DNA from: a virus
Strand: one strand, 5' to 3'
IMG/VR virus record: IMGVR_UViG_3300017949_000026
Location: 1 to 35,936 of that record
Length of the DNA stretch: 35,936 nucleotides
Position numbers and translations under genes: made by a program. A model generated the notes under the pieces. The model worked only from the letters and a program-made list of their open reading frames with translations, was not told the DNA's origin and did not search any database. Numbering within the stretch: the first letter of the stretch is position 1; every line of letters begins with the position of its first letter. Positions 8,841-34,904 of this stretch are shown piece after piece.

Positions 8841-8869
8841 AATTTAGCACAAAGTTGACAATACGTCAA
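8841..8869 (-). promoter_or_regulatory. Sigma70-type promoter, minus strand, facing away from the tmRNA
   Basis: Minus-strand TTGACG (8864-8869), 17 bp, TAAATT (8841-8846), ending 7 nt before the ATG at 8833. It interlocks with the plus-strand promoter at 8855-8883, so the two polymerases would compete for the same DNA. Confidence 0.6.
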
Positions 8870-8883
8870 CCTTAAGGTATAAT
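8855..8883 (+). promoter_or_regulatory. Consensus sigma70-type promoter of the tmRNA
   Basis: Plus-strand TTGACA (8855-8860), 17 bp, TATAAT (8878-8883), a perfect consensus. Transcription should begin near 8890 and run through the permuted tmRNA and on into the gene at 9204. Confidence 0.8.
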
Positions 8884-8889
8884 TATCGT

Positions 8890-9188
8890 TATAAATGTTG
8901 ATCAAGATGAAATAAACATTTCGGACGTCGGGGCAGTACCGACCACCTCCACCAATTTATTACTTGGTGGCCTATGTAATCCCTTCCGGGGGTGAACTAG
9001 ATTCGACGGGTGTGTAAAGATCTTGGGAGTTTGTCCAGTAGGCACGAGGTAACGTCCAGTTTTTAAATGCAAACAAAAGAGCATTAGGATTTGCCGACCT
9101 AACAGTCGGTATGTCTGAAATGAGATTAGCGGCGTAATAACCGCCTGATCTCGGGGTCGGGCAACACCTAGCAACAGAAGTTGCCCAC
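8890..9188 (+). ncRNA. ssrA: Permuted two-piece tmRNA
   Basis: Trans-translation RNA that frees stalled ribosomes and adds a degradation tag. The acceptor piece comes first: ATTTCGGACG (as in E. coli tmRNA), a T-arm with 5-bp stem 8927-8931/8939-8943 and 7-nt loop, CACCTCC (8944-8950), then ACCA ending at 8954. A 33-nt spacer follows. The coding piece starts at 8988 with GGGGGTG, which pairs fully with CACCTCC (one G-U) as a 7-bp acceptor stem, followed by CTAGATTCGACGGG, the tmRNA 5' signature. The tag frame runs 9069-9134 (22 codons, begins ANKRALGF, ends MRLAA) with a double TAA at 9135-9140. A GGGCAAC/GTTGCCC hairpin (9159-9186) closes it. Ends are estimates. Confidence 0.9.
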
Positions 9189-9203
9189 TTGAAAGGACAC
9201 CTA

Positions 9204-24972: not shown

Positions 24973-26034
24973 ATGCAAAGAAATTTTATTCTTACCGATG
25001 TGATGAAGACTGGTGATCATTTGTCTTACGAGCAATTCATCGATGCAAATACTTTACCAAATCAGTCATTCGAATACACCGGAGAGTATTACACCCTGCA
25101 CAACTATGATCTTGAACAGTATGATCGTAAACTTGCGTTCATAGATATGAGGATCCACAACAATCGTATACTAGGAAATGATGCATACAAAAAAGATCTT
25201 CAAAAACGACTGTCATTATTACACCAGCAAGGTTTCAAGTTTATACTTGCTAACCCTTGGGAATCGGAAGACAACATTCGAAACCAGTTGTTCATTACAG
25301 GGGAGAAGATGGCCCATGTTGATATACCTTATCCCTATCATCTATGGACAGGCGGCGTGTCTTGGTTCTGGAGTTATATGTACCACAAGCACAAGGATAC
25401 CAGTTTCAACTTTAATCACAAGGAAAAAGTTTATGATTTCTTGTACCTTAACAAGGCACCGCGTGAACATCGTGTGAAGTTGTACGACACATTGATGCAC
25501 GACGGTCTTTTAGACAAAAGCCTACACACTTTCGTTGGCCGCAATCCTTCTAGGAGATTGCCAAAGCAGTATGAACTTCCTGGGGTGAATCCCAAGGACT
25601 ATCCTAGGTGGGGTCTAGACCAGGACATATATGAATTACCCTACAATCACACCAATTGCAGTCTGGTATCCGAAACCAACGATAATGATTACGAGATTTT
25701 CATGACCGAAAAGATCTGGAAGCCTATCATAGCAGGTCACCTTTTCATTGTACATGGCAATTACCTTTACCTACAAAAACTCAGAGAGATGGGATTCAAG
25801 ACTTTTTCTCAGTATTTTGACGAAGGTTATGATCTCGAGAAGGATCCTGTGCAACGTATCATTAAGATAGCGGATCTGTGTAAAGAGGTGAGATCTAAGA
25901 ACTGGCAGGACATATACCTTGCATCACAATCACTGAGGGAACACAATACTAAAACTTTCTTTGACAAAGAAAAATTATCTTTGCAGGTTAACGAAACTAT
26001 AAATTTATTTCTTGAATTTGTTGATCGCAGTTAG
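24973..26034 (+). CDS. Glycosyltransferase, GT10-like C-terminal domain
   Basis: 353 residues from the ATG at 24973; a longer frame from 24880 would run across the divergent promoter. The segment SETNDNDYEIFMTEKIWKPI with AGHLFIVHGNYLYLQKLREMGFKTF matches the nucleotide-sugar-binding C-terminal domain of fucosyltransferase-like (GT10) enzymes. It probably transfers a sugar to host LPS, capsule or a phage component. It converges with 26005-27219, overlapping by 30 nt. One of few plus-strand genes. Confidence 0.7.
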   Translation: MQRNFILTDVMKTGDHLSYEQFIDANTLPNQSFEYTGEYYTLHNYDLEQYDRKLAFIDMRIHNNRILGNDAYKKDLQKRLSLLHQQGFKFILANPWESEDNIRNQLFITGEKMAHVDIPYPYHLWTGGVSWFWSYMYHKHKDTSFNFNHKEKVYDFLYLNKAPREHRVKLYDTLMHDGLLDKSLHTFVGRNPSRRLPKQYELPGVNPKDYPRWGLDQDIYELPYNHTNCSLVSETNDNDYEIFMTEKIWKPIIAGHLFIVHGNYLYLQKLREMGFKTFSQYFDEGYDLEKDPVQRIIKIADLCKEVRSKNWQDIYLASQSLREHNTKTFFDKEKLSLQVNETINLFLEFVDRS

Positions 26035-27219
26035 ATTTCTTCTGCTGAATCCCAACCTATCAACTAACTTGACTGCGTTGCCTGTTTTGTCAACAGCAAC
26101 AAATCCTTCCGGCTCTGTGACTTCTAGTCCGCTGTCTGTCTGTTGGAATGACCCTATCGCTTGGGCCTGATTCATTTTCTTTAGAACGAAGGCCTTCATG
26201 GTCTGTACGCCTCTGTAGAAAGTAAGCATGGCCTGTAATGGTTTCTTAGCCTTGTTTAGAAAAATTGGCATCTGCTTCATCTTGTCTTGCCTCAGCGCCA
26301 GTGCTTTCTGTGCCTTAAGTCCTGACATCTGTTGTTGCATTCTATCATTGTAGAACTTCTTGAATCCCAATAAGAACTTGTTGGCATCATTTGGCAGTTT
26401 GCCTTCTCTTACCATTGCATTGATGTACATCTGGAACATAGGTATGAAGTCTTGGTTTTGTCCTAGCACACTTGCTAGGTTACGTGGCACACCGTTCAAT
26501 AGATTCTCAAGTTTTTCTATGCCGTTGAAGAACTGTTTGGTCTCGGCATCTGTGAACTTGGCACTGCCTGACACATCTTTGTATGTTGCATTGTCAAAGA
26601 ACACATCCGGACTTTTAGTGAATCCGGACACGTCTGCACCTCCCTGTGCGTTCATATCGCTCAGCGAATCACCAGCGTAAGTCGTGTGGAATATTATTCC
26701 AACCTTTGCACTGTCTATCTGTTTGGACAAGTCTGACCCCTCGGGCACCGCATAGGTGATTGTGTTGGGGGTAAAAGTGATGTGTGGTTTGCCATCTATG
26801 TTCTTCCTGATGATGTCCTCGTCAGTGAATAGCAGGTCTCCCTGCACCACTCCTTGTATATCTAATTTTTTGAGGTGTACCAGGCATTTCAATAATTTCT
26901 GTCCCAGTTCGTCTGTGCCGTGATTGTTTGCTATGTCTCTCTTGGTGTAGTTTATCTTTGCGTTCTTGGCGAATACTGATTTGGTGCCAACAAAAAACTT
27001 ACCATTGTCTGGATTGGTTCCACAAACCACAGCGGGTGCACCATCCCATTTGACGGACACACTCATTGCCTCTGAACTGGTGCCTTTCAGTGTTAATAGT
27101 AGTCCCCTGAAGTATTCTATCACAGCCTGGCCACCTTGGTATCCATCAGTTATCACAAGATCTTCTATGTGTTCGAGGTGTGTCCTCTTGAACTCTGTTA
27201 GGACATCTTCTATCAACAT
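26005..27219 (-). CDS. Nucleotidyltransferase-like protein with ligase motif I
   Basis: 404 residues. VSVKWDGAPAVVCG (Lys57-x-Asp59-Gly60) matches motif I of ATP-dependent DNA/RNA ligases, and FFVGTKSVFAK and GVVQGDLLF (Asp128) could be motifs III and IIIa/IV. The C-terminal half is helical with Gln/Lys-rich stretches. Similar large proteins are common in marine T4-like phages, but a proven function is not known to me. An adenylylated-lysine enzyme is a reasonable hypothesis. Confidence 0.5.
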   Translation of the reverse strand: MLIEDVLTEFKRTHLEHIEDLVITDGYQGGQAVIEYFRGLLLTLKGTSSEAMSVSVKWDGAPAVVCGTNPDNGKFFVGTKSVFAKNAKINYTKRDIANNHGTDELGQKLLKCLVHLKKLDIQGVVQGDLLFTDEDIIRKNIDGKPHITFTPNTITYAVPEGSDLSKQIDSAKVGIIFHTTYAGDSLSDMNAQGGADVSGFTKSPDVFFDNATYKDVSGSAKFTDAETKQFFNGIEKLENLLNGVPRNLASVLGQNQDFIPMFQMYINAMVREGKLPNDANKFLLGFKKFYNDRMQQQMSGLKAQKALALRQDKMKQMPIFLNKAKKPLQAMLTFYRGVQTMKAFVLKKMNQAQAIGSFQQTDSGLEVTEPEGFVAVDKTGNAVKLVDRLGFSRRNLTAINKFKK

Positions 27220-27221
27220 TG

Positions 27222-27521
27222 TTAGTCCTCTTGATATTCGCCGTCTTTGATTTTGAGCACGTTCTGTTTGATATCTTTGTTCTCTTTGATACGAGCGACA
27301 CCCTTGCTGAACTTGGATGCGTCCATGTTTTTTAGTGCTGAGTTAAACTTCTTCTCTAGTTTGAATGCTGTGTCCTGGTCGAAATTTTCCCTGATGTAGT
27401 ACATTAACCTGATCGCTGATTCTAAAATGTGTGACGCCCTGCTCTCTACAACTTCTTCCTTGTCCCTTTTGAGGGGCATAGAGCTCAGTTCTTCTAAAAG
27501 GCTTCTAGTGTGTTTTTGCAT
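27222..27521 (-). CDS. Small helical hypothetical protein
   Basis: 99 residues, charged and all helical. It is coupled to the ligase-motif gene (2-nt gap, GAGGAC before that ATG). Its own ATG lies 8 nt from a late element. It may be a partner of the downstream protein; no family is recognised. Confidence 0.6.
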   Translation of the reverse strand: MQKHTRSLLEELSSMPLKRDKEEVVESRASHILESAIRLMYYIRENFDQDTAFKLEKKFNSALKNMDASKFSKGVARIKENKDIKQNVLKIKDGEYQED

Positions 27522-27529
27522 ATATTAGG

Positions 27530-27569
27530 TATTTACACTTAATTGTAGCATAATAATAGTAAAAGTCTA
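27530..27569 (-). promoter_or_regulatory. Late element plus possible sigma70 promoter
   Basis: Minus-strand TGTAAATA (27530-27537), 8 nt from the ATG at 27521. Just upstream, TAGACT (27564-27569), 16 bp, TACAAT (27542-27547) could be a second promoter. Together they would allow both early and late expression. Confidence 0.45.
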
Positions 27570-28232
27570 CTGCGAATTCTTGCGATAAACAAAGTATTTG
27601 CGAGAATTCGAATCATCTCGTATGTCCAACACCTTGAGATCGAACATCTCTGCCAGTTCTATTATGAATGGCACATTCCATGCATAGAACTCTATCCATT
27701 TGGCTTCGGGTTTGTCGTGCTGTATTCCCGGATTGACCCTGAAAAACATGATGCCTCCCTTCTCTAACAAGTTGACACATTTACTAACTTCAGCAATGAT
27801 CTTGTTTCTTCCGCCAAAGTTTATTGAACCCAGTGCTAAGATAACATCAAACTTTTGCAAGGGCCTGTACTCCATAAGGTCTAACTGATAATCTGCTTGC
27901 CTATTATAAGGATCTATACCTATCAGGTTGTGCACCTTGCCTCGGAACTCGTTGAAACCACAACCAACATCCAACACACTCCTTGGCTTCATGTCATTGA
28001 TCTGATCTATCAGTGTAAGTCCAGAGTGTTTCCATTTTTTCATGTCTGCCTGCCAGTGGTTTGAAAAATACCTATGGAGACATTTTTTATCAATGGCTTC
28101 TGTGTATGATACAAGATTATCAAATGTTTCATCAACATCTACGTCAAAGGCCTTCTTAATCAAATCGGGAGTGACCAGTAATGGGTCATTGTTGGTCAGC
28201 CTGACCAACTCAGCAAATATCTTCCTGTTCAT
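27567..28232 (-). CDS. SAM-dependent methyltransferase, paralogue A
   Basis: 221 residues. SAM motif I SVLDVGCGFNEFRGK, then GIDPYNRQADYQLDL and VILALGSINFGG. The unusual GCGxNxxxGK motif, and the later LALGSxNxG, are shared with 30491-31042, so the two are paralogues. Both also have HSG/HWQ residues before motif I. Likely class I small-molecule, sugar or peptide methyltransferases; substrate unknown. Confidence 0.7.
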   Translation of the reverse strand: MNRKIFAELVRLTNNDPLLVTPDLIKKAFDVDVDETFDNLVSYTEAIDKKCLHRYFSNHWQADMKKWKHSGLTLIDQINDMKPRSVLDVGCGFNEFRGKVHNLIGIDPYNRQADYQLDLMEYRPLQKFDVILALGSINFGGRNKIIAEVSKCVNLLEKGGIMFFRVNPGIQHDKPEAKWIEFYAWNVPFIIELAEMFDLKVLDIRDDSNSRKYFVYRKNSQ

Positions 28233-28241
28233 TTAATAATA

Positions 28242-29114
28242 CTATGATGGATTTTTATGGATGTCAAGAGTATGACTTGAGTCTTTGTTGGTGCTCTCTA
28301 TGAATTTCCAAGTCTTGTCTGTAGTCCTGCCGGTGAATTGCAGGATGTATCTTGTGTCCCAACCCATGTTGGCCGTTCCATGCGGGAAGTCCTGCCAGTG
28401 CCAACTGATGATATCACCCGCCTTCCAGTGAGTGTGTACAGCCGTACCTTGATGCCATATCTGTCCCATGCTCCAATCATTGAGAAACACAACAAATCTG
28501 TGCACCTTCTTGGGGTCAACATCATAATCTAATTCGTCAAAACTGTTTTGCCTGTCTAATCTGGCCGCGAAGTTGTCCATGTGCATATGCAAGAGTTGTC
28601 CACAAACTTGTGAGTGAAGTTTCAATTCATAGTCATAAAGACCAAGCAGTCCTTCTGCCAGTGCAACTGCTTTTGGATCCGTAAACATATTGGCCCTGCC
28701 ATATATCTTTGCCTCAGGATCGCCGCCTGATCGCACGACGTCATAAACTTCTTGATCTATACCGTAGTTTTCTCCAACGCTCTTGTTCCGTGTGGCCCAG
28801 TGTACAGCATTGTCCAAAGCCTTGTCGCCGTATGTATCAATAAAGTAGTTGCAATCCATATCAACATTGCCATGGAACATTAACACGTCTTCGATGTTGT
28901 CTTTCTTGCTCCAGTCAAAATGATAGGCACCTCTTGCAAGAGCTCTCTTCTTCTCGTAGTCCCAACGGCTCTTGCCGTATTCCAACTTCCTGCCGGTCTT
29001 GACTGCGTTGACTTCTGCGTGTGCTTTTAAATTTTTAATCGCTTGATCGGAATCCTGTAGGTCCTCGTCTATCTTTTTTAAAACGTCTTGTGAGTAATCT
29101 TTGCTGTGTTCCAT
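28242..29114 (-). CDS. 2-oxoglutarate/Fe(II)-type oxygenase, paralogue 2
   Basis: 290 residues, the longest of the three. The core has His178-x-Asp180 (HMHMDN), LNDWSMGQIW, FPHGTANMG with His245, and Arg255. It carries a roughly 160-residue N-terminal extension with helical segments absent from the other two. The ATG lies 5 nt from a late element CTTAAATA. It probably hydroxylates a host or phage molecule; substrate unknown. Confidence 0.65.
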   Translation of the reverse strand: MEHSKDYSQDVLKKIDEDLQDSDQAIKNLKAHAEVNAVKTGRKLEYGKSRWDYEKKRALARGAYHFDWSKKDNIEDVLMFHGNVDMDCNYFIDTYGDKALDNAVHWATRNKSVGENYGIDQEVYDVVRSGGDPEAKIYGRANMFTDPKAVALAEGLLGLYDYELKLHSQVCGQLLHMHMDNFAARLDRQNSFDELDYDVDPKKVHRFVVFLNDWSMGQIWHQGTAVHTHWKAGDIISWHWQDFPHGTANMGWDTRYILQFTGRTTDKTWKFIESTNKDSSHTLDIHKNPS

Positions 29115-29188: not shown

Positions 29189-29881
29189 TTAAGCGTACAC
29201 TTCCATCAACTTGGCGCTTTCTTCTAATGTGCCAGTCTTGCTTGAAGTGATTGCGAATAAGTCTTTTCTGAACTCGTTTACAACAGAGTTGATTTCGTCT
29301 TGAGCTTCTTGTGTTTCACATAGTTTCTCAAGTTCCATTCTTCCGATTGAAGCGTGGAAAGTTTCATCTCTGGCGATCTTTGCGTATCTTGAAGAAATGA
29401 ACTTGTCTTCGATACACTCGGCCATCATAGCCCAGTTTCTCGCCGCTCTGCCTTCTGCTATCAATTGGTACATTGCCAACATCAACGGATTGTCGTTGCA
29501 GTTGTACTTCTTGATCATTGCCGCACCTTTTTGGTGTAATCTCTCTGCATGGCTTTCTACTGCCTTCTGCATGTCAATTTTCTCACCTTTTAGGTATTCA
29601 ACAACTTCTCTTACGAATTGAAAGTGTTTTGCCTCGTCGTGTGCTTGTTTCGAAAGTAGAACCAATTTCTCAGGATCTGTTCCGGCTGGAAGAGCCGCGA
29701 TCTCTCTAGAAATTTCTTCCATGTTCATTCTCTCGTTAACCATACGACCAGTGAAGTTGTCAATCAACTCCTCTTTGTCTGTAGTGTTCTCGTAGTAGTG
29801 CTTGATCTGTAACTCAGACGCTCTGAATAGGGCCTCGTTGTCCTTCTCAAGTTTGGCTACGAATTCTTTTCCTGATAACAT
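29189..29881 (-). CDS. Ferritin-like di-iron protein
   Basis: 230 residues, four-helix bundle. Metal ligands fit E, ExxH, E, ExxH: Glu50 or 56, Glu83-x-x-His86 (HDEAKHF), Glu143 (AEGRAARN) and Glu173-x-x-His176 (RDETFH). The pattern is that of ferritin-like oxidases and oxygenases rather than storage ferritin. An AGGAGA precedes the ATG, with a leader of about 34 nt and an own terminator, so expression is likely high. Substrate unknown; an oxygenase with iron or O2 chemistry is suggested. Confidence 0.7.
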   Translation of the reverse strand: MLSGKEFVAKLEKDNEALFRASELQIKHYYENTTDKEELIDNFTGRMVNERMNMEEISREIAALPAGTDPEKLVLLSKQAHDEAKHFQFVREVVEYLKGEKIDMQKAVESHAERLHQKGAAMIKKYNCNDNPLMLAMYQLIAEGRAARNWAMMAECIEDKFISSRYAKIARDETFHASIGRMELEKLCETQEAQDEINSVVNEFRKDLFAITSSKTGTLEESAKLMEVYA

Positions 29882-29953: not shown

Positions 29954-30508
29954 ATGAAAATACTCATCAGCCAGCAGGAATTCATACATCCTCGTAACAA
30001 TTTCCAGTTTGATGCACTTGAACGCAGTTTCTATGTGTTTCTGCGTGGGCACGAACTGATTCCCGCACCAAACATCAATAAAGTACACTATAATGATTAT
30101 GACTGCCTGTTGCTGACTGGGGGTCCAGACAGCCTGTCGAGGCACCTCACAGAAAACTTGCTGTATCGACATGCAACGCAAAATGACCGGGCAGTGTTGG
30201 GCATATGCCATGGAGCATTCGCGATTAACGATCTATTGGGCGGCAAGAACGGTCAAGTAGAAGGTCACAGGAACACAGAACACACAGTGGTACTGGAAGG
30301 CAAAGAAATAATGGTCAACAGTTATCATTCACAGTGCATAAGAGAACTTTCAGATGAACTGCATCCGTTGGCACACGACAAGCATGGCAACTGCGAAGCA
30401 TTCGAACACAAGAGCAAACAGCAATGGGGAGTGGTATGGCATCCTGAACGAATGTCAGATCCTGTCTTGCCTGATGCTGTGAGAAAATTCTTATCTTCTA
30501 CGATATAA
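29954..30508 (+). CDS. Class I glutamine amidotransferase-like protein
   Basis: 184 residues. Nucleophile Cys85 sits in the elbow GICHGAFA; the His-Glu pair is His163 and Glu165 (VWHPERM). Oxyanion LLLTGGPDS is at 53-61. The triad is complete, resembling GATase1 or gamma-glutamyl hydrolase proteins. It may release ammonia from glutamine or cleave a gamma-glutamyl bond. It converges with 30491-31042, sharing 18 nt. Confidence 0.75.
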   Translation: MKILISQQEFIHPRNNFQFDALERSFYVFLRGHELIPAPNINKVHYNDYDCLLLTGGPDSLSRHLTENLLYRHATQNDRAVLGICHGAFAINDLLGGKNGQVEGHRNTEHTVVLEGKEIMVNSYHSQCIRELSDELHPLAHDKHGNCEAFEHKSKQQWGVVWHPERMSDPVLPDAVRKFLSSTI

Positions 30509-31042
30509 CCACACGTACCTATGAGGCCATTCACGTTCCGGCAGGGTGCCGTCGGTATTGTATTCCATCTCCACACGCTCAACTGTGAAGTCCATAAGAT
30601 TAGCGAAGTAGTCTATCTCTTTTGTTCCCCATTGGAACCATTTTAGTCCTTGGTCATTCTTATATCCACCTGGTGCTCCTCTCATATAGAGTCGTCCACC
30701 CGGCTTCAGCCAAGATTTCAATTTGATCAACATATGAGCGATGTCGTCATGGTTGCCCCAGTTGACTGACCCCAGAGCCAGTATCACGTCTGCGCAACCT
30801 GGCTTGAATGGTGCGTCCCAGTGTCCACACTTGATGTCTGCCTCGTCAAACACGGGATCATATCCCACTAGATTCTTGATCTTGCCTTTTAGGAAGTTAA
30901 TTCCACACCCTGCGTCGATCACCAGTGAGGGATTGAGTTCGTTGATCTCGTCCACTAGGTTGCTACCCGAGTGCTTGAATAGGTGTATGTTTGACTGCCA
31001 GACGTTTTTGTAGAAATAATCCTGTGCTTCTTGATCTATCAT
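30491..31042 (-). CDS. SAM-dependent methyltransferase, paralogue B
   Basis: 183 residues. Motif I is LVIDAGCGINFLKGKI, then VGYDPVFDEADI and VILALGSVNWGN. It shares the motif pattern and length of the core with 27567-28232. The N-terminus is shorter. It lies 13 nt beyond the tctA stop in the same direction. Substrate unknown. Confidence 0.7.
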   Translation of the reverse strand: MIDQEAQDYFYKNVWQSNIHLFKHSGSNLVDEINELNPSLVIDAGCGINFLKGKIKNLVGYDPVFDEADIKCGHWDAPFKPGCADVILALGSVNWGNHDDIAHMLIKLKSWLKPGGRLYMRGAPGGYKNDQGLKWFQWGTKEIDYFANLMDFTVERVEMEYNTDGTLPEREWPHRYVWLYRRR

Positions 31043-31055
31043 ATATCTTTAGTTA

Positions 31056-32492
31056 TTATGCGTAGTCGATGCCTCTATTCTTTTGGGTGATACTCCTGTA
31101 AACTAAGATCAATACCATTGCGAAAAGCACTAGAAACAATGGCCTCACAAACATCTCTTGCAGTGTATACATTGTCTGTAGTTGTTGCCCTAGGTTCTGC
31201 CACTTGTCTATTATGATGTAAGTTAAAAGTATCGCTGGTCTGCTGATCTTAAATTTGTAACAGAAAAGACCTAACACACTACAACAGGCCAAAGTCACAT
31301 AGTCCATGTATAAGCCTGTGTACGATTGGCAGGTGTATATGATAATTGCAAATATTATGCCAGCATAGATCCAATAAGGTATCTCTAATATTTTTACCAG
31401 CAGTTTAGAAGTGAATATACAGATTATGAAAGTCAAAATTGTGGCTCCGACAAAACCATATCCAAGTAATGACAAAAATTTCTTGTCTTCAAGCATGAAA
31501 GGATTCCCCACATCTAATCCAAACGTGATACACATGGCCATAAAGATTGCCGCAAACGGAGATGCCGGTATACCAAACAACACTGTTGGAATCAGGCTTC
31601 CTGCCTTCTGTGCGTTGTTGGCTCCCTCACAACCTGCCAGTCCTTTGGGATTTCCTACACCGAACTTGTCATTGGGGTGTGCCCTCACAGTTGCACCATA
31701 GGCCAACATATCTCCCACAGGTCCGACTCCCGGCAGTAGTCCTGCTATAAAACCAATAAAGCCTCCCCTTATAGAGTCTCGCCACAACTTCAATGTGGTC
31801 CTGAAGCCGTCGAACAATTGGCTGAAATAGTTGTTTATGGGTGTGGGCCTGTTCTTTCCAAAGTGGAAACCCGACACCAGTTCTGGAATGCCAAAAAGTC
31901 CTGCTATCATCATTATGATCGGCACTCCGTCCTGTAGGTACAAAGTGCCAAATGTCAGTCTCGGTCCACCGGTCTGTGGATCAATACCCATCAGTCCAAT
32001 GAAGGCACCTATCGCTATCGCACAACAACTGAGCCAGAAGTTCTTAGACACAATGAAAGCCACACAGGCTATGGACAGTGTCATGAACATGAACAGTTCA
32101 GGAACTCCAAACTTGTATATGATTGGTGCGTAGAATGGCAACAGTGCGAAAGCCAACACTCCAAAGAAGATGCCGTTGAACGTGCTGTCGGCCATCGCTA
32201 TACCTATCGCCTTGGCGGCATCTCCGTTCTTGCTCATCTTGTATCCATCTATGATCGATGCCGCCGTTGTGGAGGCACCGGGTATGCCCGTGAGCAGTGA
32301 CGTGTATGAGTCAGCGGTGCTTGACGCCGCTATCACACTTATCAAGAATATAAGACCGTAATAGGGATTGGGATCAAAGTATCCCGCGAATGAGAATACA
32401 AGTAACATCGCCGTTCCGGCGCCTGCCATGGGAATCACTCCCAAGAGAATTCCGTATACTGTTCCCAGCAGGCACCAGAGTGCGTAGTCCAT
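31056..32492 (-). CDS. tctA: Tripartite tricarboxylate transporter, large membrane subunit
   Basis: 478 residues, about 11-12 membrane segments. Signatures include GIPGASTTAASIIDGY, LLPGVGPVGDML and GCEGANNAQKAGSLIP, all typical of the TctA family. It moves organic acids such as citrate or other carboxylates across the inner membrane with TctC. The start is 1 nt after the tctC stop. No TctB-like four-helix gene is seen nearby. It is unusual in a phage and is likely a metabolic cargo gene. Confidence 0.9.
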   Translation of the reverse strand: MDYALWCLLGTVYGILLGVIPMAGAGTAMLLVFSFAGYFDPNPYYGLIFLISVIAASSTADSYTSLLTGIPGASTTAASIIDGYKMSKNGDAAKAIGIAMADSTFNGIFFGVLAFALLPFYAPIIYKFGVPELFMFMTLSIACVAFIVSKNFWLSCCAIAIGAFIGLMGIDPQTGGPRLTFGTLYLQDGVPIIMMIAGLFGIPELVSGFHFGKNRPTPINNYFSQLFDGFRTTLKLWRDSIRGGFIGFIAGLLPGVGPVGDMLAYGATVRAHPNDKFGVGNPKGLAGCEGANNAQKAGSLIPTVLFGIPASPFAAIFMAMCITFGLDVGNPFMLEDKKFLSLLGYGFVGATILTFIICIFTSKLLVKILEIPYWIYAGIIFAIIIYTCQSYTGLYMDYVTLACCSVLGLFCYKFKISRPAILLTYIIIDKWQNLGQQLQTMYTLQEMFVRPLFLVLFAMVLILVYRSITQKNRGIDYA

Positions 32493-32493
32493 G

Positions 32494-33552
32494 TTACTTC
32501 AATAGGTGTGGTTTGAACTCGGCCTTCCAACCGAAGATGTTGTTGAACCACCAAACAAGATCCTTCAGTTTTTTCTCAGTGTAAAGGGATCGCTGATACT
32601 TCACTATCTTGTCTGCTTCTTCACCAATTGCCCACTGGTAGTCACCACCGGATGCCTTGGCGATAATTGCTCTCGACTCTGGATCTTTCAACATCTTTTT
32701 CAGTGCCTTCACAAGTTCTTTCCTGTGCTTGGCACCTTTGTTTACCCATAAGCCTTTTTGCAGAGAGTCATTTTGGAACTGCACTAGCCTGTATGCGTCA
32801 TACAATTCACCACTTGGTTTTTCACCCCAAGTCTGTTCGAACACTGTGTCAAAGTCCTTGCCTGGTGCGTTGGGGTTTGTCACGATCCTCTTTTTCTTTT
32901 TATCGTACACACCTTGCGTGAACCAGATCTCGCCGTGTTCAAATTTCTTGATTTTCTTTGTCCAAGCAGTTGGGTTGCCCCTGAACACGTTGAACTCGCC
33001 ATTTGCGAACATAAGTGTTCCTTGCTTGTCGTCTACACCTTTCACGTACTTCATCTCCTCGTCCACACATTTCTTGTATGAAGCGATCTTGCCGTCAAGG
33101 TTACCACAGTACATAAGCACCATACCTGTAACGTCACCTGCCGCGTGGTCGTTTCCGAAGACCATTCCGCCTGATCTAGGATCCCAGTCTTTTCTCTTAC
33201 CAACGAAGATGTCTAACAACTGCACTCCGATGGCGTCCCAGTTCATGTAGTCGTACTCTACACCCGTCTTCACAAGTGTGTTCACTGAAGTTGTTCCACC
33301 CGTGACGGTGATAGCACCTTCCTTGAATCTGTTCTCTTTGTTCCATTTGTTCATTCCGATCAAGTGCCTCGCACCTGGAATGTGGACGGACTTTACGTCT
33401 GCGTCAAGATGTTTTTTAAGTTCTTTGATCACCACCTGCGCCCATTGATCCAAACCAGATCCTGGTTTAGTTGGTAGGTAGATGGTGTAGTCGGCCATAG
33501 CCGATGTAGCCATAAAGAACAAGAAGGCCACTGATGTTATCAGTTTTTTCAT
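32494..33552 (-). CDS. tctC: Tripartite tricarboxylate transporter, periplasmic solute-binding protein
   Basis: 352 residues with a signal peptide ending in TSAMA before Asp. The mature protein opens with YTIYLPTKPGSGLDQWAQVV, the TctC-type start of a periplasmic carboxylate-binding protein. Slightly longer than typical TctC (about 325). AGGATATT precedes the ATG. It is the first gene of a tctC-tctA operon. The ligand cannot be read from sequence alone. Confidence 0.85.
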   Translation of the reverse strand: MKKLITSVAFLFFMATSAMADYTIYLPTKPGSGLDQWAQVVIKELKKHLDADVKSVHIPGARHLIGMNKWNKENRFKEGAITVTGGTTSVNTLVKTGVEYDYMNWDAIGVQLLDIFVGKRKDWDPRSGGMVFGNDHAAGDVTGMVLMYCGNLDGKIASYKKCVDEEMKYVKGVDDKQGTLMFANGEFNVFRGNPTAWTKKIKKFEHGEIWFTQGVYDKKKKRIVTNPNAPGKDFDTVFEQTWGEKPSGELYDAYRLVQFQNDSLQKGLWVNKGAKHRKELVKALKKMLKDPESRAIIAKASGGDYQWAIGEEADKIVKYQRSLYTEKKLKDLVWWFNNIFGWKAEFKPHLLK

Positions 33553-33656: not shown

Positions 33657-34094
33657 ATGAAACTGAGTAGGCAAACCAAGATCAGGATGTATTCGCACTA
33701 TGATCACGACATAGACGTGGATGACGAGTTCTGGCCAATGATGGGCATAATGCTCACGATATGGTCTTTGTGGACTGGTCTCATACACCTGATTGACTGG
33801 TTTACTTTTGATGTGATACCATGGTGGATCGAGCCTTTTACCATTGTTCCAGTTATCTTCCTAGTGATAATGAAAGAACTTTATGATTCCATCAATCCAT
33901 TGCACTGGTGGCCAATGGTGTGGGGTTACAAAGCCAAACTGCCAGACGAGGATAGGATCACAATCAGACCTTTGGACACAGAACGCATACTAAAGCAACA
34001 CGGTGGTAGAATGAACGTGCATATCATTGACTTCGAATACGTTAAATTCAGAAGGAAAAAGGACGCTGTTATTTTTGGTCTGCGATATTTCTAG
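33657..34094 (+). CDS. Two-helix membrane protein
   Basis: 145 residues from the ATG at 33657; a frame open from 33534 has no plausible start signal. Two membrane segments lie at roughly 26-45 and 56-74, flanked by many Trp residues, then a basic cytoplasmic tail. Not TctB, which has four helices. It diverges from tctC. Function unknown. Confidence 0.55.
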   Translation: MKLSRQTKIRMYSHYDHDIDVDDEFWPMMGIMLTIWSLWTGLIHLIDWFTFDVIPWWIEPFTIVPVIFLVIMKELYDSINPLHWWPMVWGYKAKLPDEDRITIRPLDTERILKQHGGRMNVHIIDFEYVKFRRKKDAVIFGLRYF

Positions 34095-34245
34095 ACGACC
34101 TGAATACCTTACCGTACTTGTTCTCGTACAGGCTCAATTTGTCTGACAACTCCCGTACAATTTGTCTGTACTCGGCATTTTGCACTTCTAGGTTGCCTAA
34201 CTTTGCCGACAGCATCCTTATCTCTGTGTCTTTGTCTTCTTTCAT
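34069..34245 (-). CDS. 58-residue coiled-coil miniprotein
   Basis: Begins MKEDKDTEIRMLSAKLGNLE. Heptad-like Leu/Ile spacing runs through residues 9-40. Its ATG overlaps the oxygenase stop as ATGA, so it is translationally coupled. The 3' end overlaps the converging plus-strand gene by 26 nt. Function unknown. Confidence 0.55.
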   Translation of the reverse strand: MKEDKDTEIRMLSAKLGNLEVQNAEYRQIVRELSDKLSLYENKYGKVFRSSRNIADQK

Positions 34246-34904
34246 ACCTTGAACTTTAGTTTTGATTTGCTTTTTAAAATTTTCCTAAACTTGTCAGTGG
34301 CTATCCCTCTAACGAAAAGCATTGGACGGAGGTTGTGTCCAAAATTGGCAGTACCATGTGGGAGATGTTGCCAATTGAAATACATTATGTCTCCTTTTTT
34401 CCAACGCACCCAATGGTGGCTTCCCATCAACATAACCTGTCCTGGGTACCAATCGTCCAACATTATAAAACAGGTGACTAATCTTTCTCGCCTCTGTTTT
34501 TCACTCAGTGGTTGTCCGTTGTTATCTAGGTATTCATTTTCTGATCTGGCGGTATCCATGTGTATTACAGTCATCTGTCCTGGCACCTGGTCCTGCAGGT
34601 GAATCTTGATATCTTCCAGTCCGATTGGATCTACGAATTTCTTATACTGACTAAAGGATTTCTTGTCAAGTTTCGTGGATGTGTATATCTGATCAACCTG
34701 AATTCCGAACTTTCCCTGTTGTGCGATCACGGAAGGGTTGCTTGATACAAGTTTGTTTTTATGTGTCCTTTTTGGCAGTCGGGGCCATTTTCCTTGTACG
34801 TTGCCTATAATTTTGAACATTTCACTATCAGGTTTGTCATTATGATAGTTCCAATGCCATCTACTTTGTTTCTTTCTCCTGAAAAATTCCTTCGACGGTT
34901 TCAT
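34242..34904 (-). CDS. 2-oxoglutarate/Fe(II)-type oxygenase, paralogue 3
   Basis: 220 residues. Iron triad candidates are His115-x-Asp117 (VIHMDT) and His183 (LPHGTANFG); Arg193 (LRPMLF) is the expected cosubstrate arginine. DDWYPGQVMLMG is near identical to paralogue 1. N-terminal 30 residues are basic and aromatic. It lies 14 nt beyond the stop of 34919-35062. Confidence 0.65.
   Translation of the reverse strand: MKPSKEFFRRKKQSRWHWNYHNDKPDSEMFKIIGNVQGKWPRLPKRTHKNKLVSSNPSVIAQQGKFGIQVDQIYTSTKLDKKSFSQYKKFVDPIGLEDIKIHLQDQVPGQMTVIHMDTARSENEYLDNNGQPLSEKQRRERLVTCFIMLDDWYPGQVMLMGSHHWVRWKKGDIMYFNWQHLPHGTANFGHNLRPMLFVRGIATDKFRKILKSKSKLKFKV

Follow-up and report, generated by a model that had tools for sequence, protein, structure and literature searches.

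What use a bacteriophage makes of a carboxylate transporter that seems to consist of two parts instead of three is the question raised by the locus described here. It lies in a single linear virus fragment of 35,936 bases, the whole of which was analysed and is called the window below. On the minus strand tctC is followed by tctA across a gap of 1 nt (position 32493), and both genes are full-length and intact, as the initial annotation had stated; ORFs, PF01970 and the TctC/Bug fold described below all agree with this. The pair and the parts of it that are needed for the argument are as follows.

31056-32492, minus strand: tctA, multi-helix transporter subunit of 478 aa without a C-terminal TctB domain (Pfam PF01970)
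32494-33552, minus strand: tctC-like periplasmic solute-binding protein of 352 aa (BugD profile match, predicted fold)
33493-33552, minus strand: signal-peptide-like N-terminus of TctC, residues 1-20, MKKLITSVAFLFFMATSAMA (from sequence; ends SAMA-DYT)
33448-33474, minus strand: ligand-loop motif PTKPGSGLD of TctC, residues 27-35, an altered TctC/Bug signature (alignment with the signature of PMC5812351)

The window is a fragment of an uncultured T4-like marine phage. Around the pair it encodes ribonucleotide reductase, endolysin, a tail-spike-like protein and DUF6267, and the best cultured matches of NrdA and DUF6267 come from Pelagibacter phages Mosig (69%) and HTVC008M (41%), respectively. 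One more gene bears on the host.

8851-9189, plus strand: alphaproteobacterial-type permuted tmRNA gene (Rfam RF01849, 113.7 bits; ARAGORN tag ANKRALGFADLTVGMSEMRLAA)

Since pelagiphages are the best cultured matches of the window genes and the tmRNA is of alphaproteobacterial type, an alphaproteobacterial host is plausible.

PF01970 covers residues 5-423 of the window TctA (profile positions 2-423 of 423, E 7.3e-89), which identifies it as the TctA membrane subunit of a tripartite tricarboxylate transporter (TTT). Its partner has no match in Pfam even at E<=10, so that it falls outside PF03401 (TctC), and none in PHROG or NCBIfam. A profile built from 13 viral TctC homologues nevertheless recognized the TctC-type receptor BugD (2f5x) among PDB sequences with E 0.0018, and the AlphaFold model of the protein (pLDDT 83, pTM 0.82) gave BugD and other TctC/Bug structures as its first structural matches. 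VIA Z-scores of this model against 11 TctC/Bug structures, i.e. TTT receptors, were 16.5-19.2, those against all others not exceeding 12.2; the predicted fold is thus specifically of the TctC/Bug receptor type. The signal peptide previously ascribed to TctC was confirmed as a signal-like N-terminus, and its pattern of basic, hydrophobic and small residues is retained in 13 homologues. The signature motifs had also been taken for intact. For TctC this holds only in part: the published ligand-loop signature is P-F-x-A-G-G-x-x-D (PMC5812351), and in the alignment the window loop P-T-K-P-G-S-G-L-D retains from it P, the first G and D, while the loop of another viral clade, PQKPGGGTT (or TS at its end), retains P and both G.

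Such departure from the published signature might indicate that the pair is not an importer at all, being instead a modified receptor with a membrane protein that serves for sensing, for export, or as a block against uptake or against superinfecting phages. Orphan bacterial TctC proteins are indeed thought to have roles other than transport (PMC5812351), and an archaeon needs a TctA-like protein in order to take up DNA (PMC10133366). We consider this interpretation quite improbable, given that the two phage proteins are co-inherited and conserved along their length, and that a K and GGG loop like the viral one is also present in cellular TctC proteins adjoining TctA fused with TctB, which are described below.

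Joint inheritance of the two genes was evident at several levels. The pair is conserved in 14 other contigs, with identity of 74-92% for TctC and 80-96% for TctA, and is under purifying selection, dN/dS being about 0.01-0.06 at dS near saturation. Alignment search revealed TctC relatives in 353 viral contigs; TctA accompanied TctC in 85 of 87 fetched loci, and the divergence of the two proteins was correlated (Mantel r 0.91, 76 loci). In 50,697 GenBank phage records nothing was found with either the window TctC or a distant viral TctC, and TctA had only remote matches there (24-28% identity). With the same TctC alignment, just 2 loci were registered among 84,980 cellular species. The first of them (L036) was rejected as a cellular copy: it carries DUF6267 and is a phage contig misbinned as Pelagibacter. 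The second, in a metagenome-assembled genome named 'Marine bacterium B5-7', has bacterial-type flanks. Its contig (L035 4548-7044, L210 7555-10057) holds a viral-type TctA-TctC pair with P-loop and methyltransferase genes of the type found near the pair in phages, and also bears DsrK-like, YcaO and DUF2058 genes; the pair was possibly transferred from phage to bacterium in this case.

One could suspect that a single linear fragment carrying a member of so common a bacterial family as TctA is contaminated with host DNA, or that the genes are a non-functional passenger of the assembly, and contamination had been named at the outset as an observation that would overturn the claim of a phage-borne pair without TctB. 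This suspicion was rejected as extremely improbable, since gene order and flanks, that is the same phage synteny, are identical in many independent contigs, since TctC relatives are so unevenly divided between viral contigs and cellular species, and since purifying selection is strong. Hundreds of viral contigs against almost no bacterial genomes give the impression that viruses have long used the pair, and suggest, as far as sequence comparisons go, a nearly virus-specific solute uptake system. Gene order is C-A in the window's clade and A-C in other viral clades; since on the TctA tree the C-A clade nests within A-C clades, the flip to C-A looks derived.

No less important is whether the third subunit is really missing. 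PF07331 (TctB) had no match in the window record, a 35.9-kb fragment, in accordance with the initial annotation, where TctB was not seen. A TctB gene elsewhere in the genome had been anticipated there as the other fatal objection, and none came to light in 31 other viral contigs of up to 157 kb, four of them 138-157 kb long, with either PF07331 or a model of the closest fused TctB-like domain; the latter matched nothing in all 32 viral records and found all of its 3 positive genomes. Searching by predicted helices, with a predictor that assigned 4-5 helices to 20 of 20 TctB controls, gave no recurrent 4-helix gene of 80-280 aa within 6 kb of TctA in 86 loci; two isolated ORFs of this kind were mutually unrelated. 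Three other candidates were dismissed. The two-helix gene at 33657-34094 had been judged unfit as TctB beforehand, and this judgement proved sound: tblastn finds it in all 5 sites that are free of the genes accompanying the transporter, as a clear ORF in 4 of them, and since it is kept there it is not the transporter's small subunit. A 74-aa two-helix gene adjoining TctC in 9 loci is too small and too sporadic, and the 722-nt gap between TctA and TctC in one locus (L029) contains a 2OG-oxygenase-like gene.

Thus the small four-helix subunit was found neither as a separate protein nor as a fused domain, in contigs that are mostly fragments and for a protein that is poorly conserved. It is known that earlier BLAST searches for TctB failed, that its function is unknown, and that the equivalent small subunit of TRAP transporters is essential (PMC5812351). 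A very divergent TctB could therefore escape the search, which weakens the case for TctB-independence. That a divergent or unrelated small subunit of the phage was missed in this way, the window and most contigs being incomplete, is nonetheless very unlikely in our estimation: both models remained silent in contigs of up to 157 kb, some of which are probably near full length because genomes of cultured relatives are 141-147 kb, and four-helix genes do not recur in the 6 kb around TctA. As the search for TctB was negative and the receptor signature is altered, we file the pair as a two-gene TTT variant rather than as a canonical system.

Cellular relatives were sought with profiles in genomes of SAR11 and other Pseudomonadota. 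The closest TctC proteins of cells measure 353-397 aa and adjoin TctA ORFs of 649-683 aa, and when TctA was searched for without recourse to TctC, the nearest cellular proteins reached 697 aa. These TctA proteins carry a C-terminal extension of 154-172 aa with 4-5 helices, which resembles TctB (hhalign E 4e-6, probability 87%), and PF07331 matches lie inside three of the long ORFs. Phage TctA, in contrast, ends at residue 478, once the TctA core is complete, and the C-terminal TctB domain of the fused lineage is absent. Fusion of this kind had been reported for a single case, Paraburkholderia caribensis (PMC5812351); from the genomes searched it appears to be far less rare. TctC with fused TctAB is widespread, and 12 of 13 such loci (L196-L209) adjoin a gene for PrpF. 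This protein belongs to an isomerase family of the aconitate/methylitaconate type, and its presence points to a short tri- or dicarboxylate as the cargo of the fused lineage. The locus without PrpF, from SAR11, has a ComA-like gene of the phosphosulfolactate synthase family (L205 2950-3855, minus strand). Both PrpF and ComA-like genes are absent from all viral loci examined, and since PrpF is missing there the phage cargo may differ from that of cellular relatives. On the TctA tree one clade holds all viral sequences and is a sister of the cellular fused lineage, not nested inside it, and apart from classical TctA, with SH-aLRT support of 100 by a quick method and a long viral stem (1.57) that makes the exact viral placement uncertain.

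These relationships also bear on the idea that phage TctA and TctC assemble with TctB of the host into a complete three-part transporter. PF07331 is detectable in 61 of 151 Pelagibacter-genus genomes, and an alphaproteobacterial host is plausible; the other 90 genomes show no TctB, and Pelagibacter may not be the host of the window. The nearest cellular kin of the phage TctA have TctB fused in cis, so that any separate TctB available for recruitment would belong to a distant TctA subfamily. Recruitment of the host subunit, the chief alternative to TctB-independence, is therefore less favoured and, on balance, unlikely.

The transporter genes do not travel alone. In the window they stand next to several enzyme genes, and this group, referred to as the cassette, is listed here together with the genes that border it.

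26005-27219, minus strand: DUF6267 / phrog_455 gene of marine T4-like phages, cassette border
27222-27521, minus strand: 99-aa gene, cassette border in filled and empty sites
27567-28232, minus strand: second SAM-methyltransferase-like cassette gene
28242-29114, minus strand: 2OG-Fe(II)-oxygenase-like cassette gene
29189-29881, minus strand: ferritin-like / R2-like di-iron protein, cassette version of the window's clade
29954-30508, plus strand: class I glutamine amidotransferase-like gene, cassette version of the window's clade
30491-31042, minus strand: SAM-methyltransferase-like cassette gene
33657-34094, plus strand: two-helix (predicted) membrane protein, cassette border, also present in cassette-free sites
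34242-34904, minus strand: second 2OG-oxygenase-like gene, outside the cassette

Among 88 loci with viral TctA-TctC, the recurrent neighbours were a methyltransferase family (69 loci), a P-loop protein (53 loci) and a 2OG-oxygenase-like family (42 loci), with gene order and orientation shuffled from locus to locus. A tblastn scan was then evaluated for 21 sites, namely those of close relatives with enough upstream sequence, which belong to one phage clade and are not fully independent. TctA/TctC together with methyltransferase, oxygenase-like and P-loop genes were present in 16 of them; the remaining 5 had no cassette gene whatsoever, their flanking genes being adjacent or enclosing unrelated genes. 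Like an auxiliary metabolic gene cassette of marine T4-like phages, it thus lies in a phage context and is optional, present or absent as a whole, at one fixed site, which is filled or empty and has the two-helix gene on one side and the 99-aa and DUF6267 genes on the other. Loci found by means of the P-loop gene contained TctA/TctC in 21 of 23 cases with enough flank, a rate that is biased because the query came from a cassette and the loci were taken in order of their similarity to it. The window itself has no P-loop gene and possesses the glutamine amidotransferase-like and ferritin-like genes as extra members; the best NCBIfam match of the former (29954-30508, plus strand) is gamma-glutamyl-CDP-amidate hydrolase, far below the cut-off.

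We attempted to read the substrate from the cassette enzymes, and this was abandoned. The P-loop protein (family alignment A8; L037 7241-7828) is a conserved viral protein of 196 aa with the motif GAPGS(K/R)WS, and it has no match among PHROG and PDB sequences. Its confident, P-loop-like model (pLDDT 95) has weak structural matches, in which sulfotransferases and nucleotide kinases are tied near Z 8-9, and the methyltransferase and 2OG-oxygenase families of the cassette gave no specific match with PDB. Since the former matches are weak and the latter unspecific, no substrate is claimed.

Comparison with known systems places the phage pair more precisely. In TctCBA (TC 2.A.80, the Salmonella citrate system and its relatives) a TctA-family subunit and a receptor of TctC/Bug fold are likewise encoded together; the phage pair differs in having no TctB gene, in a TctC below the Pfam TctC threshold and in a TctA about 28% identical to that of Salmonella and outside its clade. 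Systems of TctC with fused TctAB from SAR11 and other Pseudomonadota contain the closest cellular kin of either phage protein; they share with the phage pair the TctC-TctA adjacency and a ligand loop with K and several G, whereas their TctA of 649-697 aa has a TctB-like domain and usually a PrpF neighbour, the phage protein of 478 aa being deprived of both. TctA domain hits were reported for SUP05 single-cell viral contigs, so TctA has been met in marine viral contigs before, and the same study reported 2OG-Fe(II) oxygenase genes; in the accessible portions of that paper tctA is a domain hit only, and neither a partner TctC nor a test for TctB nor a cassette is mentioned (PMC4164917). The TctC/Bug fold also occurs in phages as 'PBP2_Bug_TTT' proteins of uncultured Caudovirales in BFVD (e.g. 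A0A6J5L7K0), which are merely 12-14% identical to the phage TctC. Archaeal orphan TctA proteins resemble the phage one in the lack of TctB, but archaea are also without a clear TctC, and one TctA-like protein there has the role in DNA uptake mentioned above (PMC10133366). In the literature searched, a TctA-TctC pair in phages, its absent TctB and the cassette are nowhere described.

Based on these data one can assume, with some preference over the alternatives weighed above, that the pair is a phage-encoded, TctB-independent, two-part carboxylate importer used in infection. If expressed in the infected cell, TctC would be exported into its periplasm, where a carboxylic acid, the presumed class of cargo, would be caught in the TctC cleft. 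TctA of the inner membrane would then receive the acid from TctC and carry it inward, transport being driven by an ion gradient, and methyltransferase and oxygenase enzymes of the cassette may take the imported compound, or metabolites related to it, as their substrates. The replacement of a host system or competition with it, which the initial annotation put forward, is conjectural. A more far-reaching version, according to which an obligate two-part TctA-TctC importer without any TctB evolved in viruses and was spread by them together with cassette enzymes modifying the imported acid, seems to us rather doubtful.

Because TctA-TctC without TctB forms a large natural family and its cellular sister lineage has a fused TctB, the need for TctB can be put directly to the test. 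The uptake system travelling with enzyme genes further suggests that marine phages of this kind may alter the uptake of solutes from seawater by infected cells.
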